From Bradyrhizobium genosp. SA-3 (GTDB taxonomy: Bacteria > Pseudomonadota > Alphaproteobacteria > Rhizobiales > Xanthobacteraceae), in contig NZ_PSRT01000020.1 of the NCBI RefSeq assembly GCF_004212635.1, positions 1 to 64,000 of the forward strand: a stretch of DNA of 64,000 nt. Direction: 5' to 3'. Below are positions 4,440-63,015 of this stretch, in pieces. The notes beneath the pieces were generated by a model. It was given only the letters and a program-made list of their open reading frames with translations, was not told the DNA's origin and did not search any database. Position 1 is the first letter of the stretch. Each line of letters begins with the position of its first letter. The translations under genes and the position numbers were made by a program.

Positions 4440-6803
4440 ATGACAGCGCTCGACATCAAATTGTTTCGCGACGTCAGGCGGCTCTGGGCTCAGGTGCTCG
4501 CCGTCGCCTTGGTCGTCGGAGGCGGCGTTGCGACGCTGGTGCTTGCGGTCGGCTCCCATCGTTCCCTGGAAGAGACCCGGATCGCCTATTACGAACGCTA
4601 TGGCTTCGCCGACGTGTTCGCGCAAGCGAAGCGCGCGCCCAAGGCGCTCGCCGACAGGATCGGCGAGATCCCGGGTGTCGCCGTCGTCGACACCCGCATC
4701 GCCAAGCTGGCGCTGCTGGATATTCCCGGCTTCTCCGCGCCTGCCAGCGCCCAATTCGTCTCGCTGCCCGATAACGGCGAGCCGCACCTCAATCGACTCT
4801 ACATGCGTTCCGGACGTCTTCCGGAGGCCGGACGGACCGAAGAGGTTGTCGTCAACGAACCGTTCGCCCGGGCTCACGGCTTCTCGGAAGGCGCGCGGTT
4901 CTCGGCCATCCTGAACGGCAAGAAGCGCGAGCTCGTCATCGTCGGCACGGCGCTGTCGCCCGAGTTCGTCTACACCGTCGGGCCCGGCGACCTGATGCCG
5001 GACGACTGCCACTACGCCATCGTCTGGATGTCGGAGAAGGCGCTCGCCGGCGTCTACGATCTCGATGGCGCCTTTTCGGTGGTCTCGGTCAAGCTGCAAC
5101 CCGGCACCTCGGAGCGCGAGGTGATCTGGCGGCTCGACACCTTGCTCGACCCCTATGGCGGGCAGGCGGGTCATGGCCGCAAGGACCAGACCTCGCACGC
5201 CTGGCTCGATCATGAGCTCGACATGCTCAACAACATGAGCCGCACGCTGCCGCCGATCTTCCTGCTGGTCGCCGCGTTCCTGGTCAATCTCACTTTGACC
5301 CGGCTGGTCGCGCTCGAGCGCGAGCAGATCGGCCTGCTGAAGGCGCTCGGCTACGCCGACAGCAGCATCGTGCTGCACTATTTCAAGTTCGTGGCGCTGA
5401 TCGTCGTGATCGGAATCCTCCTGGGCGGCGTCGCCGGCACCTGGCTCGGCTTGCGCGTCACCGCGCTGTTCGGCGACTTCTTCCACTTCCCGTTCCTGGT
5501 GTTCGCGAAGGCGCCGGACCTCTACGTCACTGCGGGCGCGCTCAGCGCGGCTGCCGCTGCGATCGGCGCGTTCCGGGCGCTGCGCGGGGTGGTGAAGCTG
5601 CCGCCTGCCGTCGCCATGCAACCGCCGGCCCCGCCGGTCTATCGGCGGCTGCTGCCGGCCCGCATCCAGCTCGACCAGATCGTGTCACAGCCGACGCTGA
5701 TGATGATCCGCAACATCGCCCGGCATCCGGTGCGGGCCTTCTTCACCGCGCTCGGCATGGCGCTCGCGACTGCGATCCTTGTGGTCTCGCTGTTCACGAG
5801 GGACAGCATGGAGCACCTGACCGACGTGACCTACTTCCTCGCCGACCGGCAGGACGCAGCCGTCGGCTTTGCCGAGAAGCGGATCGCGAATGTCGTGGAG
5901 CAGGTGAACCGGCTACCGGGCGTTCTTGCCGCCGAGCCGTTCCGCGAGGTGCCGGTCCGGATTCGCCACGGCAACGTCGAACGCCGCATCGTCATCAGCG
6001 GCCGGCCGGCCGACGCCGACCTCCGGCGCATCATCGACGCCGAGCTTCGGCCAGTCGTGCTCCCGGAGACGGGCCTCGCCATCTCCGGCATGCTCGCCTA
6101 CATCCTCGGCGTCGGGCCCGGCGACAGCGTCGAGATCGATCTGATGGAGGGAGCCCGGCGAACCGTCACGGTGCCGGTCGTCGCCACCGTCGAGGACTAT
6201 TTCGGCATCAGGGGCATGATGGAGATCGAGGCACTGCGCAAGCTGATGCGCGAGGCGCCCGTCGTGACCAGCGTCAATCTCAGCCTCGACGAGAACCGGA
6301 CGGAGGACTTCTACGCCGCCGTGAAGTCCATGCCGACGGTCGGCGGCGTGGCGCTGCAGCGCGTCTCGCTGGCGAACTTCCGCAAGACCGTCGCGCTGCT
6401 CGTCACCACGATGGCGAGCATCTACACCGGGCTCGCCGCCGTGATCGCGTTCGGCGTCGTCTACAACAACGCCCGCATCTCGCTGTCCGAACGGGCGCGA
6501 GAGCTGGCGAGTCTGCGCGTGCTCGGTTTCACGCGCGGCGAGGTGCTGCGCATCCTGCTGCTGGAGCTCGCCATCCTCACCCTGATCGCCCAGCCGCCCG
6601 GCTGGCTGATGGGCTACGGGCTTGCATGGGTCATGAAGACGAACCTGGCCGGCGAATTGATGCGCGTCCGCCTCGTCGTCGAACATTCGACGTACGTCAT
6701 CGCCACCTCCGTCGTGGTGCTGGCGGCTGCCGCCTCCGCAGTCGTTATCCGCGAACGCATCGACAAACTGGACCTCGTCGCGGTCCTCAAGACGCGAGAC
6801 TAG
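4440..6803 (+). CDS. FtsX-like ABC transporter permease, duplicated
   Basis: A 787-residue permease with the duplicated layout: a transmembrane helix at about 17-37, a large periplasmic domain, an FtsX core of three helices at about 270-385, then a second helix (about 432-450), a second periplasmic domain and a second FtsX core at about 660-780. Both cores have the conserved coupling segments ([13 protein letters not shown] and [20 protein letters not shown]). This matches long DUF214-type permeases rather than single-unit MacB. It is tightly packed between the ATPase and the adaptor gene, so the three form one export machine. Substrate unknown. Confidence 0.9.
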
Positions 6804-26968: not shown

Positions 26969-29494
<2,526 letters not shown>

Positions 29495-29935: not shown

Positions 29936-29988
29936 GGGGGTCGTACGGCGGAAACAGCGTTCGTTTGGCCGAAGGCTTTCACTGGGTT

Positions 29989-30022
29989 GTCGTCCCGGCG
30001 AAGGCGGGGACCCATAACCACC
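29989..30022. repeat. Family C left arm (before GIY-YIG gene 1)
   Basis: GTCGTCCCGGCGAAGGC then GGGGACCCATAACCACC. It differs by one base from the left arm of the complete element at 48547 across GTCGTCCCGGC...ACCCATAACCAC. It is paired with the right arm at 30351-30382 across the nuclease gene. Confidence 0.88.
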
Positions 30023-30026
30023 GTTG

Positions 30027-30314
30027 TCAAATGAGATGCGATAGATCGCGCCAATCCGGATTTTCCTGCTCGATCAAGCGAATCTTCCAGTCGCGGCACC
30101 ATTCCTTCAGTGCCTTCTCGCGTGCTTCGGATGGCGAAGTGTAAGTTTCAACGTAGACAAGTCGTGTCACGCCATATTTCGTGACGAACTTCGAACCGCG
30201 TCCAGAGCGATGCAATGTCAGCCGATTGTTGAGGTCGTTGCAGATGCCGATGTACAGCGTGCCGTAGCGCCGGCTCGCGAGAATGTAGACATAGTACGCT
30301 GCGGGTGCGTTCAT
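30027..30314 (-). CDS. GIY-YIG single-domain endonuclease-like protein 1
   Basis: A 95-residue protein made only of a GIY-YIG (UvrC/URI-type) nuclease domain: YVYILAS at residues 8-14, GTLYIG at 18-23, the conserved Arg31 in NNRL and Glu66 in AREKALK, with the usual tail WKIRLIEQENPDW. All key residues are present, so it may be active. The gene fills the space between the two arms of a family C repeat (29989-30022 and 30351-30382) and leaves almost no spare sequence. No DNA-binding domain is attached, so target choice would have to come from the nuclease fold or from DNA structure. Confidence 0.88.
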   Translation of the reverse strand: MNAPAAYYVYILASRRYGTLYIGICNDLNNRLTLHRSGRGSKFVTKYGVTRLVYVETYTSPSEAREKALKEWCRDWKIRLIEQENPDWRDLSHLI

Positions 30315-30350
30315 CGTTGGGCGCCCATTTCCGAAAACGTCCGAGAGCGG

Positions 30351-30382
30351 CGGTTATGGGTCCCGGCCTTCGCCGGGACGAC
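30351..30382. repeat. Family C right arm (after GIY-YIG gene 1)
   Basis: CGGTTATGGGTCCCGGCCTT then CGCCGGGACGAC, the mirror of the left arm at 29989. In complete C elements the arms are about 140 bases apart end to end; here they span 394 bases because the nuclease gene lies between. Confidence 0.88.
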
Positions 30383-30497
30383 ATTGTGGAGGCATCAGAA
30401 CAAATTAAGAACACTTTAGCAAGTCTTTGATATATCATTGTGATTCGGCATCGCGCCGACACAATATCTAGCGTCGTTCAGACTTCGCGAGGACTAC

Positions 30498-30929
30498 ATG
30501 TCCACCATTGCCTTCGATCAATTTGCCCTCACCCGGATCGCCGATTTCGCGCGGTCGCTGTCGCGACTGCATCAGGCGGCGCGGCGCCAGAGGATCGATG
30601 ACGATCAGTTCGACCGCGAGTTCAATACGGTGTGCCAGTCGATCTGGGGCTACACCATCGATGACATCAGCGACGAGCTGTTTTCGACCGACGACCATCT
30701 GTTCCTCGACACGCTGGACGAAGCGCATGCGCGCATCTTCGCGGCCGAGCAGGGTTATGACCTCGTCGATGACCAGGGCATGCTGACCGATTGGTGGGGC
30801 TTTTGCTGGATGATCCTGGCCGAGAAGCGCGGCCTCTTGACGCCGGAAAACCGCGCCGCTGCGCGCGCCGCAATCGAGCAGAAATATCTGGCGGCCCCGA
30901 ACGTGATCGGGGTGATCATCGGGCGGTAG
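30498..30929 (+). CDS. Conserved-type hypothetical protein (143 aa)
   Basis: A 143-residue soluble protein, acidic in the middle (IDDDQFDREF, DDISDELFSTDDHLFLDTLDE) and basic near the end. There is no signal peptide or membrane helix. The Trp/Tyr-rich SIWGYTIDDISDELF and TDWWGFCWMILAEKRGLLTPENR segments look like folded helices. I do not recognise a family. It has a normal start with a good upstream gap and codon use like its neighbours, and is followed 12 bases later by a family A element. Confidence 0.6.
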   Translation: MSTIAFDQFALTRIADFARSLSRLHQAARRQRIDDDQFDREFNTVCQSIWGYTIDDISDELFSTDDHLFLDTLDEAHARIFAAEQGYDLVDDQGMLTDWWGFCWMILAEKRGLLTPENRAAARAAIEQKYLAAPNVIGVIIGR

Positions 30930-34349: not shown

Positions 34350-34490
34350 GTCGTCCCGGCCTAGTGCGCAATTGCGCACGGGGGGCCGGGACCCATAGCC
34401 ACCGAATTAGGTTTGGCGAAGGCTGCCAACCACCATCTCGCGCCACAACTTCTCCCTGGGGGTATGGGTCCCGGCCTTCGCCGGGACGAC
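34350..34490. repeat. Inverted-arm element, family C, copy 2
   Basis: The left arm GTCGTCCCGGCC...GGGACCCATAG contains a TGCGCAATTGCGCA palindrome in place of the usual loop; the right arm is TATGGGTCCCGGCCTTCGCC then GGGACGAC. It is 141 bases long, and the spacer holds GTTTGGCGAA, which is also present in C3 and C4. Confidence 0.88.
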
Positions 34491-34496
34491 ACATTG

Positions 34497-37580: not shown

Positions 37581-37656
37581 GGCCGCAATGTATGAATTTT
37601 TGCGGGCTTTGACAGCCTTGGAAGGCGGATTTTTGGCTCAATTCCCACACTTCATC

Positions 37657-37796
37657 GTCGTCCCGGCCTAGTGCGCAATTGCGCACGGGGGCCGGGACCC
37701 ATAACCACAGGAAGTGGTTTGGCGAAGACTCGGAGTTGCCATCTTCCGCCGCAGCAAGGTTCTCGGAGTATGGGTCCCGGCCTTCGCCGGGACGAC
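37657..37796. repeat. Inverted-arm element, family C, copy 3
   Basis: 140 bases. Left arm GTCGTCCCGGCC with the TGCGCAATTGCGCA insert, then CCGGGACCCATAACCAC; right arm ATGGGTCCCGGCCTTCGCCG then GGACGAC. Spacer with GTTTGGCGAA. Between polA and the acyltransferase gene. Confidence 0.88.
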
Positions 37797-37819
37797 AGCG
37801 TGGAGAGAACGTCGCTCCA

Positions 37820-40423: not shown

Positions 40424-40512
40424 CGTCATGACCGGGCTTGTCCCGGCCATCCACGTCTGTTTTCTAGGCTGGCCAGACCACGTGGATGCCCGGGACAAGC
40501 CCGGGCATGACG
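40424..40512. repeat. Inverted-arm element, family D, copy 1
   Basis: The left arm CGTCATGACCGGGCTTGTCC then CGGCCATCCACGT is mirrored by ACGTGGATGCCCGGGACAAG then CCCGGGCATGACG. It is 89 bases, between ugd and hrpB. Confidence 0.9.
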
Positions 40513-45400: not shown

Positions 45401-45506
45401 TGTCATGCCCCGGCTTGGCCGGGGCATCCAGTACGCCGCAGCTTCTCCGTATCCAATCGCCTTCTCTCTGGACTACTGGATCGCCCGGTCAAGCCGGGCG
45501 ATGACA
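45401..45506. repeat. Inverted-arm element, family E, copy 1
   Basis: The left arm TGTCATGCCCCGGCTTGGCC then GGGGCATCCAGTA is mirrored by TACTGGATCGCCCGGTCAAG then CCGGGCGATGACA. It is 106 bases, between convergent mutase and Lrp genes. Confidence 0.88.
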
Positions 45507-48443: not shown

Positions 48444-48546
48444 ATGTGTTTCCGGATAGCCGGGGGGCGGGCGTGTTGGGGCCGACCATACGATACGCGG
48501 TTAGCGAGGGAAAGGTTGGGGCTCCGCAGGGGCCTCATGCACCGTT

Positions 48547-48686
48547 GTCGTCCCGGCGAAGGCCGGGACCCATAACCACAGGAAGAAGTTTGGCGAAAGC
48601 CGGCAGTAAAGAGTCGTCCCGCGGTGCGACCAACTGCGCCTATCGATAGATCTCGCGGTATGGGTCCCGGCCTTCGCCGGGACGAC
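48547..48686. repeat. Inverted-arm element, family C, copy 4 (reference form)
   Basis: 140 bases. Left arm GTCGTCCCGGCGAAGGCCGG then GACCCATAACCACAG; right arm GCGGTATGGGTCCCGGCCTT then CGCCGGGACGAC. It has the ordinary GAAGG loop and the GTTTGGCGAA spacer motif. Confidence 0.9.
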
Positions 48687-48706
48687 AGCGAATTTGTGGC
48701 GTCTTC

Positions 48707-58584: not shown

Positions 58585-58705
58585 TGTCATCGTCCGCCTT
58601 GTGCGCAATTGCGCACTGGGGCGGACGATCCAGTACTCCGCAGCGTTTCGACTCAACAATGACTGCCGCGGCGTACTGGATGCCCCGCCTGCGCGGGCCA
58701 TGACA
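58585..58705. repeat. Inverted-arm element, family E, copy 2
   Basis: TGTCATCGTCCGCC then a TGCGCAATTGCGCA palindrome in the loop, GGGCGGACGATCCAGTACTC, mirrored by GTACTGGATGCCCCGCCTGC and GGGCCATGACA. 121 bases, between the AmpG-like and rmuC genes. Confidence 0.85.
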
Positions 58706-60631: not shown

Positions 60632-60719
60632 CGTCATGGCCGGGCTTGACCCGGCCATCCACGCCTTGCTTGCTTTATCGCCAAGTCCGTGGATGCCCGG
60701 GACAGGCCCGGGCATGACG
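60632..60719. repeat. Inverted-arm element, family D, copy 2
   Basis: CGTCATGGCCGGGCTTGACC then CGGCCATCCACG mirrored by CGTGGATGCCCGGGACAGGC then CCGGGCATGACG. 88 bases, between def and fmt. Confidence 0.9.
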
Positions 60720-61804: not shown

Positions 61805-62542
61805 ATGCCCCGCTACAAGCTCACCATCGAATATGACGGCGCGCCGTTCTGCGGCTGGCAGGTGCAGGAGACGCTGCCCTCGGTGCAGGGCGCGCTGGAA
61901 GCTGCCGTCAAGGCGATGACCGGCGCGGACGCGCGGGTGCATGGTGCCGGCCGCACCGATGCCGGCGTGCACGCGCTCGGCCAGGTCGCGCATGTCGACA
62001 TCGCAAAGCAATTTGCGCCGGATCGTTTTCGCGACGGGCTCAACGCGCATCTGCGCCCGCATCCGGTCGCGGTGCTCGAGGCCGAGATCGTCCCCGAGAC
62101 CTTCGAGGCGCGCTTCTCGGCCATCAAGCGCCATTACCGCTACCGCATCATCAACACCCGCGCCAATCTTACCCTCGACGTCGGCCACGCCTGGCGCGTG
62201 CCGCGCCGGCTCGACGCCGATGCGATGCATGCGGCGGCACAACGCCTGCTCGGCAAGCACGATTTCACGACGTTCCGCGATACCGAGTGCCAGGCCAAAT
62301 CACCGGAGAAGACGCTCGACCAGCTCGACGTCGCGCGCGATGGCCGCGAGATCACGATTCTCACCACGGCGCGCTCGTTCCTGCATAGCCAGGTGCGCTC
62401 GATGGTGGGCTCGCTGGTCTGGGTCGGCGAGGGACGCTGGAGCGCGGATGATCTCTCCGCAGCCCTAGCTGCCCGCAACCGTGCGGCGTGCGGCATCGTT
62501 GCGCCGCCGGAGGGATTGTATCTGGTGAAGGTGGATTACTAG
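61805..62542 (+). CDS. truA: tRNA pseudouridine(38-40) synthase TruA
   Basis: A 245-residue enzyme. The catalytic Asp is in [14 protein letters not shown] (about residue 53); [10 protein letters not shown] and [19 protein letters not shown] are further family marks. It modifies U38-U40 in the anticodon arm of tRNAs. It is the third gene of the def-fmt-truA run and is followed by a lone family D arm. Confidence 0.96.
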
Positions 62543-62561: not shown

Positions 62562-62593
62562 CGTCATGGCCGGGCTTGCCCCGGCCATCCACG
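62562..62593. repeat. Family D left arm (before GIY-YIG gene 2)
   Basis: CGTCATGGCCGGGCTTGCCC then CGGCCATCCACGT. It matches the left arm of D1, D2 and D4, but no right arm follows before the nuclease gene, which starts 17 bases later. Confidence 0.88.
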
Positions 62594-62610: not shown

Positions 62611-62900
62611 ATGCATGGTGGGTGGGTCTACATCCTGGCGAGCGCTCCAAATGGCATTTTGTACGTCGGCGTGACGAGCGATATTATTCGTCGTGTCTAC
62701 GAGCATCGAAATGGACTCGTGCCTGGCTTCACCAAAAAGTACGGTATCAAGCTACTCGTCCATTTCGAACGCTACGAGGATATCCAAACCGCCATCCAGC
62801 GCGAGCACAACATCAAGCACTGGTCACGGACTTGGAAGTCAGGTTGATCCTCAGGGATAATCCTGAATGGAAGGATCTCTACGACACGATCGTCCAGTAA
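62611..62900 (+). pseudogene. GIY-YIG single-domain endonuclease 2, frameshifted near the end
   Basis: From ATG 62611 the frame encodes 78 residues: WVYILASAPNGILYVGVTSD, the conserved Arg in IIRRVYEH, and Glu in AIQREHNIKHWSRTW, then ends early (KSG-stop at 62847). The next frame continues with the usual family tail VRLILRDNPEWKDLYDTIVQ to 62900. One base is missing at about 62839 (AAGTCAGG for AAGGTCAGG). The core nuclease residues remain, so the shortened protein might still fold, but the last helix is lost. It lies after a lone family D arm and 24 bases before a complete D element. Confidence 0.82.
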
Positions 62901-62924
62901 GGCGTGCCCCGGTTCTCGCCACAT

Positions 62925-63015
62925 CGTCATGGCCGGGCTTGTCCCGGCCATCCACGATCTTTCTTGCTGGAGGCGCCGAAGAACGTGGATGCCCGGGACA
63001 AGCCGGGGCATGACG
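62925..63015. repeat. Inverted-arm element, family D, copy 4
   Basis: CGTCATGGCCGGGCTTGTCC then CGGCCATCCACG mirrored by CGTGGATGCCCGGGACAAGC then CGGGGCATGACG. 91 bases, between GIY-YIG gene 2 and dapE. Confidence 0.9.

Follow-up and report, generated by a model that had tools for sequence, protein, structure and literature searches.

In the REPIN-RAYT systems, as described in the accessible parts of PMC3116915 and PMC8049555, REPs form inverted doublets, the enzyme gene is next to REPs of its own type, one genome can hold several enzyme-REP pairs, inheritance is vertical, and REPs are more numerous where the enzyme is present. The CGTC-tagged REPs (Di Nocera et al. 2013, PMC3733652) carry the tag CGTC/TGTC, an 8-9 bp stem, a 4-5 nt loop and a CCA tail, and they form head-to-head doublets; Bradyrhizobium has types 1 and 3, unusual loops included. 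Neither a dedicated transposase for these REPs nor a tyrosine transposase gene flanked by them is reported in the accessible text of that paper, in which they stand as a large repeat class, mainly of alphaproteobacteria, that had spread without a known enzyme in 2013. A GIY-YIG gene and a RayT gene are listed together among clade-specific genes in PMC9465073, with no link drawn between them in the accessible text. None of the matches listed in a literature search covering few subscription papers and no preprints connected REPs or REPINs with GIY-YIG proteins; such a link may already have been described elsewhere.

The window, a 64,000-nucleotide stretch of a Bradyrhizobium contig, contains the following features, in which REP types are our own assignment from the description in PMC3733652, as far as accessible.

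29988..30028, plus strand: left arm, a CGTC-1-type REP with an extension; tag TGTC, 8-bp stem with one mismatch, 4-nt loop, CCA tail
30027..30314, minus strand: single-domain GIY-YIG nuclease gene, 95 aa, two residues shorter than its nearest relatives
30343..30383, minus strand: right arm, a perfect CGTC-1-type REP in inverted orientation
34350..34491, plus strand: REPIN-like doublet of the same REP family as the window arms; left hairpin capped by GTGCGCAATTGCGCAC; DNA fold z -6.9
37656..37797, plus strand: REPIN-like doublet of the same family as the window arms; left hairpin capped; z -7.3
48546..48687, plus strand: REPIN-like doublet of the same family as the window arms; z -7.4
58585..58705, plus strand: REPIN-like doublet of another CGTC type; z -5.8
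62562..62591, plus strand: CGTC-3-type REP left of the second GIY-YIG copy; 9-bp stem, 5-nt loop
62613..62901, plus strand: second GIY-YIG copy, with a frameshift near the C-terminus
62925..63015, plus strand: CGTC-3-type REP doublet right of the second GIY-YIG copy

As the original prediction held, a GIY-YIG gene is enclosed by inverted repeat arms. The arms at 29988-30028 and 30343-30383 are 41 nt each, 90% complementary and 314 nt apart, and the ORF listing gives one complete ORF between them, the 95-aa gene on the minus strand, which by that listing is intergenic. Its stop codon lies 12 nt from the left REP and its start codon 42 nt from the right REP. The REP is built as TGTC-GTCCCGGC-GAAG-GCCGGGAC-CCA; the right-arm hairpin is perfect (fold z -4.5), whereas the left copy has one stem mismatch (fold z -1.2). 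Further members of this repeat family (family C) had been placed near 34350, 37657 and 48547, and we located them as the three doublets of the arms' own family listed above. At up to two mismatches, the genome contains 179 copies of the 25-nt arm core (94 plus, 85 minus) and 0 of its reversed pattern; among 100 arm-core places listed, 54 make up 27 tag-outward inverted pairs, 86-110 nt apart by hand count.

The window arms and REPs bear an unpaired terminal tag (CGTC, TGTC or CCTC), an 8-9 bp stem, a 4-5 nt loop that is expanded in some copies, and a CCA tail. Each window doublet consists of two inverted REPs and a spacer folding into one hairpin, which is the make-up of a REPIN. By our own type assignment, the arms fit the CGTC-tagged REPs, agreeing in tag, stem, loop, tail, high copy number and head-to-head doublets with the description accessible in PMC3733652; the difference is that no transposase is given there, whereas here a GIY-YIG gene is bracketed by CGTC REPs and co-varies with them. 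The cap palindrome GTGCGCAATTGCGCAC recurs in REP hairpin loops at 34350-34491, 37656-37797 and 58585-58705 despite unlike stems, as if loops had been swapped between REP families. Additional CGTC-3-like doublets, with unlike stems in their two arms, lie at 40424-40512, 45401-45506 and 60632-60719.

A Pfam search of the window protein returned GIY-YIG as the only family at E<=0.001 (52 bits, residues 7-77); the Y1/HUH transposase domain of a RAYT was absent, and no NUMOD or other DNA-binding module was found. Two residues of the nearest relatives are missing from the window protein, and this copy may be impaired. Among 211 relatives, the near-invariant residues were Y8 (207), Y19 (209), G21 (210), R29 (210), E66 (211) and N85 (204). 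A conserved Y, Y-x-G, R, E and N are the key residues of the GIY-YIG superfamily, and all of them are conserved here, as in a member of that superfamily. Median dN/dS was 0.10 and 0.07 in two enzyme clades, with 86 of 160 and 58 of 73 pairs usable and median dS near 1. By this comparison, dN/dS and residue conservation indicate that the GIY-YIG protein is under purifying selection.

In an AlphaFold model (pLDDT 82.7), the nearest fold was UPF0213 (1zg2), the sole match at E<=0.001, and PDB entries 1zg2 and 1ywl were also matched by sequence profile. The window protein is like the small UPF0213 GIY-YIG proteins in size, fold and sequence profile; it differs in its REP association, of which we found no report for UPF0213. 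The next fold match was Slx1 (Foldseek E 0.03, probability 1.00), a structure-specific GIY-YIG nuclease whose nuclease domain resembles the predicted fold, the match being weaker than that to UPF0213. Slx1 carries a RING domain and partners with Slx4, whereas the window protein has no second domain. GIY-YIG homing endonucleases and Penelope-like elements likewise represent GIY-YIG nucleases tied to mobile DNA; the window protein differs from them in lacking a second Pfam domain and so a NUMOD or reverse transcriptase module.

Relatives of the protein were found in 95 of 98 Bradyrhizobium-genus genomes, two or more in 82 (E<=1e-6). REPs were sought within 250 nt on each side of the genes by a strict detector that required tag, stem, loop and CCA, and enclosing inverted repeats were counted at a score of at least 14. 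The test originally proposed was whether arms flank homologues more often than random genes, and the counts against control windows and control ORFs favour this: strict CGTC REPs stood on both sides at 88 of 157 relatives' loci (in opposite orientation at 83) against 4 of 10,929 control windows, and enclosing inverted repeats were present at 127 of 157 against 44 of 10,929, with n slightly inflated since a few loci are in two sets under different names (e.g. L068/L164, L077/L186, L086/L198). Control ORFs of at least 100 aa had opposite REPs on both sides in 7 of 805 cases, inverted repeats in 8 and a REP on at least one side in 82. No set was drawn at random. One was confined to the top 80 matches, and hand-picking from the matches listed supplied both the phylum sample and the 40 genus loci. 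L037-L066 were left out of the flanking counts, and loci with less than 260 nt of flank were dropped, which removed one of the 37 named Bradyrhizobium loci, four of the 43 named others and one of the 43 in the phylum sample.

By set, strict two-sided REPs were detected at 22 of 40 and 30 of 36 Bradyrhizobium loci, 24 of 39 named others and 12 of 42 Pseudomonadota picks, with 3 of 2818, 0 of 2500, 1 of 2583 and 0 of 3028 same-locus control windows in the same order; enclosing repeats were found at 36 of 40, 35 of 36, 30 of 39 and 26 of 42 loci, with 12, 10, 8 and 14 of these control windows. The best phylum matches outside the genus, a set without a control run, gave strict REPs at 7 of 24 and enclosing repeats at 12 of 24, so that strict two-sided REPs were lower in the less selected sets (12 of 42 and 7 of 24). 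Named examples with two-sided REPs include Afipia, Pelagibius, Parvibaculum, Methylobacterium and Rhodobiaceae. Among Bacteroidota, enclosing repeats whose arm reads TTGTCATTCCTGTGAAAACAGGAATCTAT were present at loci of two Lutibacter species (scores 17 and 21); the strict detector misses most of them because the tail differs. In flanking by cognate REPs, the GIY-YIG gene works like a RAYT without being a member of that family.

Strict REPs on both sides were lacking at 18 of the first 40 Bradyrhizobium loci, 14 of which had none on either side; by eye, each of these 14, which stand outside the strict counts, showed palindromic arms of other make-up. Long cruciform arms of the GTGTCCCGGAC...GCCGGGACCCAG type bracket the GIY-YIG genes L079, L081, L082, L086, L091, L097, L102 and L104, and arms of the same long cruciform type, missed by the strict detector, occur at the C207 locus of the window genome (L006 in G000).

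The flanking DNA of the window gene is common to 21 of the 29 other best loci (hereafter siteA), with an 841-aa ORF at 26969-29494, which we take to be glycogen phosphorylase, on one side and the ORF at 30498 on the other. The arms at these shared loci change from CCCGG to CCTGG types. At the site of the bare doublet 58585-58705, relatives L089, L094, L096 and L103 carry a GIY-YIG gene between two doublets, and L084, L092 and L106 carry one between two single REPs. Both loci examined have the same gene neighbours in several or many species and, judged by these neighbours, are shared by descent, in line with the vertical inheritance of RAYTs. On the 98-genome tree, presence of the gene changed 17 times.

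Protein identity was then compared with arm similarity at 72 loci, which are the 116 loci with strict two-sided REPs dereplicated at 90% protein identity. The correlation was rho 0.42, the highest of 999 permutations being 0.20. Arm cores had a median similarity of 0.91 between left and right of one locus and 0.14 between loci, and left and right cores were identical in 35 of the 72. These data suggest that each protein version tends to pair with its own repeat version.

Copies of three REP stem types were counted in the 98 Bradyrhizobium-genus genomes, the reversed control giving 0 in each genome, and two enzyme clades (siteA and CCTGC) were assigned by hand. Raw medians, from which genomes with partial genes were left out, were 40 versus 0 for CCTGG, 75.5 versus 7 for CCCGG and 4 versus 9 for CCTGC in genomes with versus without the siteA clade (28 versus 69). 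For the CCTGC clade (29 versus 65), they were 23 versus 1 for CCTGC and, for the non-matching types, 0 versus 1 for CCTGG and 9 versus 12 for CCCGG. Phylogenetic GLS on 93 genomes (27 siteA and 29 CCTGC-clade carriers), with a rough phylogenetic correction because the tree of 98 genomes rests on two neighbouring genes of about 1.25 kb, gave matching log2 effects for siteA of +2.26 for CCTGG (p 2e-10) and +2.43 for CCCGG (p 9e-9), against -0.61 for the non-matching CCTGC (p 0.098). The CCTGC clade showed +2.03 for CCTGC (p 3e-10), against 0.12 for CCTGG (p 0.62) and 0.35 for CCCGG (p 0.28). There is thus a double dissociation: the siteA clade goes with more CCTGG and CCCGG REPs, and the CCTGC clade with more CCTGC REPs.

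The matching effects persisted when 4 or 8 copies were subtracted from carriers for the gene's own arms (p<=1.1e-5 and p<=1.2e-4), when G065 and G041, which have the gene beside the marker, were added as carriers, when partial genes were counted either way, and when genomes less than 90% complete were dropped; in this last run, siteA was negative for CCTGC (p 0.029). Matched nearest pairs were weaker, with 12:5 for CCTGG (p 0.14), 14:4 for CCCGG (p 0.03) and 2:10 for CCTGC (p 0.04) in siteA, and 19:7 for CCTGC (p 0.03), 7:6 for CCTGG and 14:12 for CCCGG in the CCTGC clade. Exceptions occur in both directions: the siteA carriers G073, G074, G050, G053 and G041 have 0-3 CCTGG REPs, while the non-carriers G084, G043 and G007 are rich in CCTGG and G077, G052, G049 and G020 in CCTGC REPs, and 25 of the 69 siteA non-carriers have at least 10 CCCGG REPs.

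At the level of the phylum, genomes with five or more CGTC-1 REPs had the enzyme (E<=1e-17) in 27 of 38 cases, versus 52 of 261 for the others (odds 9.9, p 7e-10; 299 genomes, kinship ignored). For the 52 carriers with few CGTC-1 REPs, the pattern may have missed their REP types. At this threshold, the enzyme was not found in 11 of the 38 CGTC-1-rich genomes, namely G327, G262, G299, G133, G149, G205, G208, G233, G368 and G378, plus G098 with a weak match. In G133, G149, G233, G368 and G378, which have 23 to 153 CGTC-1 REPs, no GIY-YIG relative came up at E<=1e-10; these five may have lost the enzyme or may depend on a different mover.

Clean empty sites, which the original prediction named as support, did not appear: among the comparisons listed, strict and relaxed criteria gave none in 20 orthologous regions (11-20 kb), the window and 40 further loci, the between-species comparison at the window locus included, and no target duplication was seen in the same comparisons. 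Sites lacking the gene held unrelated DNA (L219, L220), a decayed hairpin or other REP doublets. The L229 alignment, forced through non-matching sequence beyond about 33.4 kb of the window, was left out. In G093, whose neighbouring marker is 92-95% identical, the window gene and its arms are gone and a decayed single hairpin is left; CCCGG REPs number 1 in G093 versus 160 in the window genome, an anecdotal figure from a single genome pair. A 122-nt doublet in L241 corresponds to a single 28-nt hairpin in L243, possibly the footprint of a deletion or excision. The window site 37656-37797 and its orthologous sites in L230-L248 hold REP doublets of different families by species, which suggests a hot spot or replacement.

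On these grounds, we consider it probable that the small GIY-YIG protein is a nuclease dedicated to CGTC-tagged REPs as their partner, that it does for them what RAYT does for GTAG-tagged REPs, and that it propagates its cognate REPs in trans. What the comparisons show in support, read from sequence throughout, is the flanking, the protein-arm pairing, the selection on the protein and the number of matching REPs that goes with each clade. Set against REPIN-RAYT as described in the accessible text of PMC3116915 and PMC8049555, the GIY-YIG case is alike in its doublets, cognate REP flanks, several pairs per genome, vertical inheritance and greater REP number with the enzyme, and it differs in having GIY-YIG in place of a Y1/HUH transposase and CGTC-tagged in place of GTAG-tagged REPs. 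The gene would stay at its inherited locus between two cognate REPs, and the protein would recognise its own REP family by hairpin and tag and propagate REPIN-like doublets, such as those at 34350, 37656 and 48546, in trans. A structure-specific cut, as the Slx1-like fold might allow, would fall at the base of the extruded hairpin beside the CGTC tag and be followed by re-insertion (transposition) or by break-and-repair copying at another intergenic site. The claim that the enzyme propagates family C thus gains from the flanking, from arm type following the protein and from clade predicting matching REP number, and it loses the clean empty sites. The three doublets, cast originally as non-autonomous copies of the element, do belong to the same REP family; the picture is unlike that of an IS with derived MITEs, where the parent is mobile, since the same neighbours across species at the two loci examined point to a resident gene acting in trans.

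The main alternative is reverse causation, whereby the enzyme persists where REPs abound. A homing-type parasite, whose GIY-YIG gene inserts at abundant REPs and persists where they are common while the REPs spread otherwise, seems unlikely: GIY-YIG is a homing-nuclease fold, and enzyme presence following REP abundance would give the same correlation, but at the loci examined the gene has stayed beside the same neighbours from species to species, the protein is without a second Pfam domain, and such a parasite need not track arm type so closely. We also find it improbable that the nuclease is a host-side caretaker that resolves or trims REP hairpins or cruciforms and, without spreading REPs, is retained where they are numerous. 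The predicted Slx1-like fold, the purifying selection and the correlation with matching REPs would suit this role, yet the two inverted cognate REPs bounding the gene, and the arm-type matching at its own locus, are left unexplained unless the arms autoregulate.

We judge it very unlikely that family C owes its spread to a RAYT or some other Y1 transposase, with the GIY-YIG gene as a bystander. Of 299 genomes, 156 have a Y1_Tnp domain, and the share is higher among those with at least 5 CGTC-1 REPs (28 of 38 versus 128 of 261, odds 2.9, p 0.003), but family C arms are missing from the loci of all four Y1_Tnp genes found in the window genome (a lone CGTC-3-type REP lies about 1.1 kb from one of them), the accessible text of PMC3733652 gives no CGTC-flanked tyrosine transposase gene, and the GIY-YIG link is both stronger and type-specific; a RAYT as main mover was rejected on the arm-less Y1 genes and this stronger association. 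Chance bracketing of a small gene by REPs that crowd intergenic gaps is scarcely credible: one intergenic site does hold REPs of different families in relatives, but the controls taken at the same loci, both windows and ORFs, speak against the idea, as does the double dissociation of enzyme clades and REP types.

A wider reading, to which we incline with less assurance, is that bacterial palindromic repeats are mobilised by two unrelated classes of enzyme, RAYT and single-domain GIY-YIG nucleases, each lineage of the latter recognising its own CGTC hairpin and maintaining REPIN populations across at least Pseudomonadota and Bacteroidota; this would be the first GIY-YIG transposase for non-coding elements. 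REP-type repeat populations would then have arisen with two unrelated nuclease folds, a convergence with something general to say about how small replicating sequences become established in bacteria. With a candidate enzyme that is matched to its repeats, and several such pairs in a genome, the spread of CGTC REPs becomes directly testable.

The window genome holds further GIY-YIG genes. The second, frameshifted window copy (62613-62901) lies among REPs of the CGTC-3 form (9-bp stem, 5-nt loop); in L088 (G037), a gene at 5001-5270 has flanks matching window positions 62542 and 63038, the site of this second copy, with REPs of another type. The C104 and C207 copies, split between frames, are bracketed by two further palindrome types (C207 by eye). 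Neither the C219 copy nor a 692-aa match on C99, presumably UvrC-like, has CGTC REPs or arms in its locus. Among eight more distant GIY-YIG matches, strict REPs were found at none, and enclosing arms were absent from five (L292, L296-L299). C219, the 692-aa match and these five rule out a coupling that extends to all GIY-YIG proteins. The distant genes L293, L294 and L295 are enclosed by a different palindrome, of GTCCCGAGC...GAGGGAC and CCTGAGCTTGTCGAAGG-like types, a hint of further enzyme-repeat pairs.
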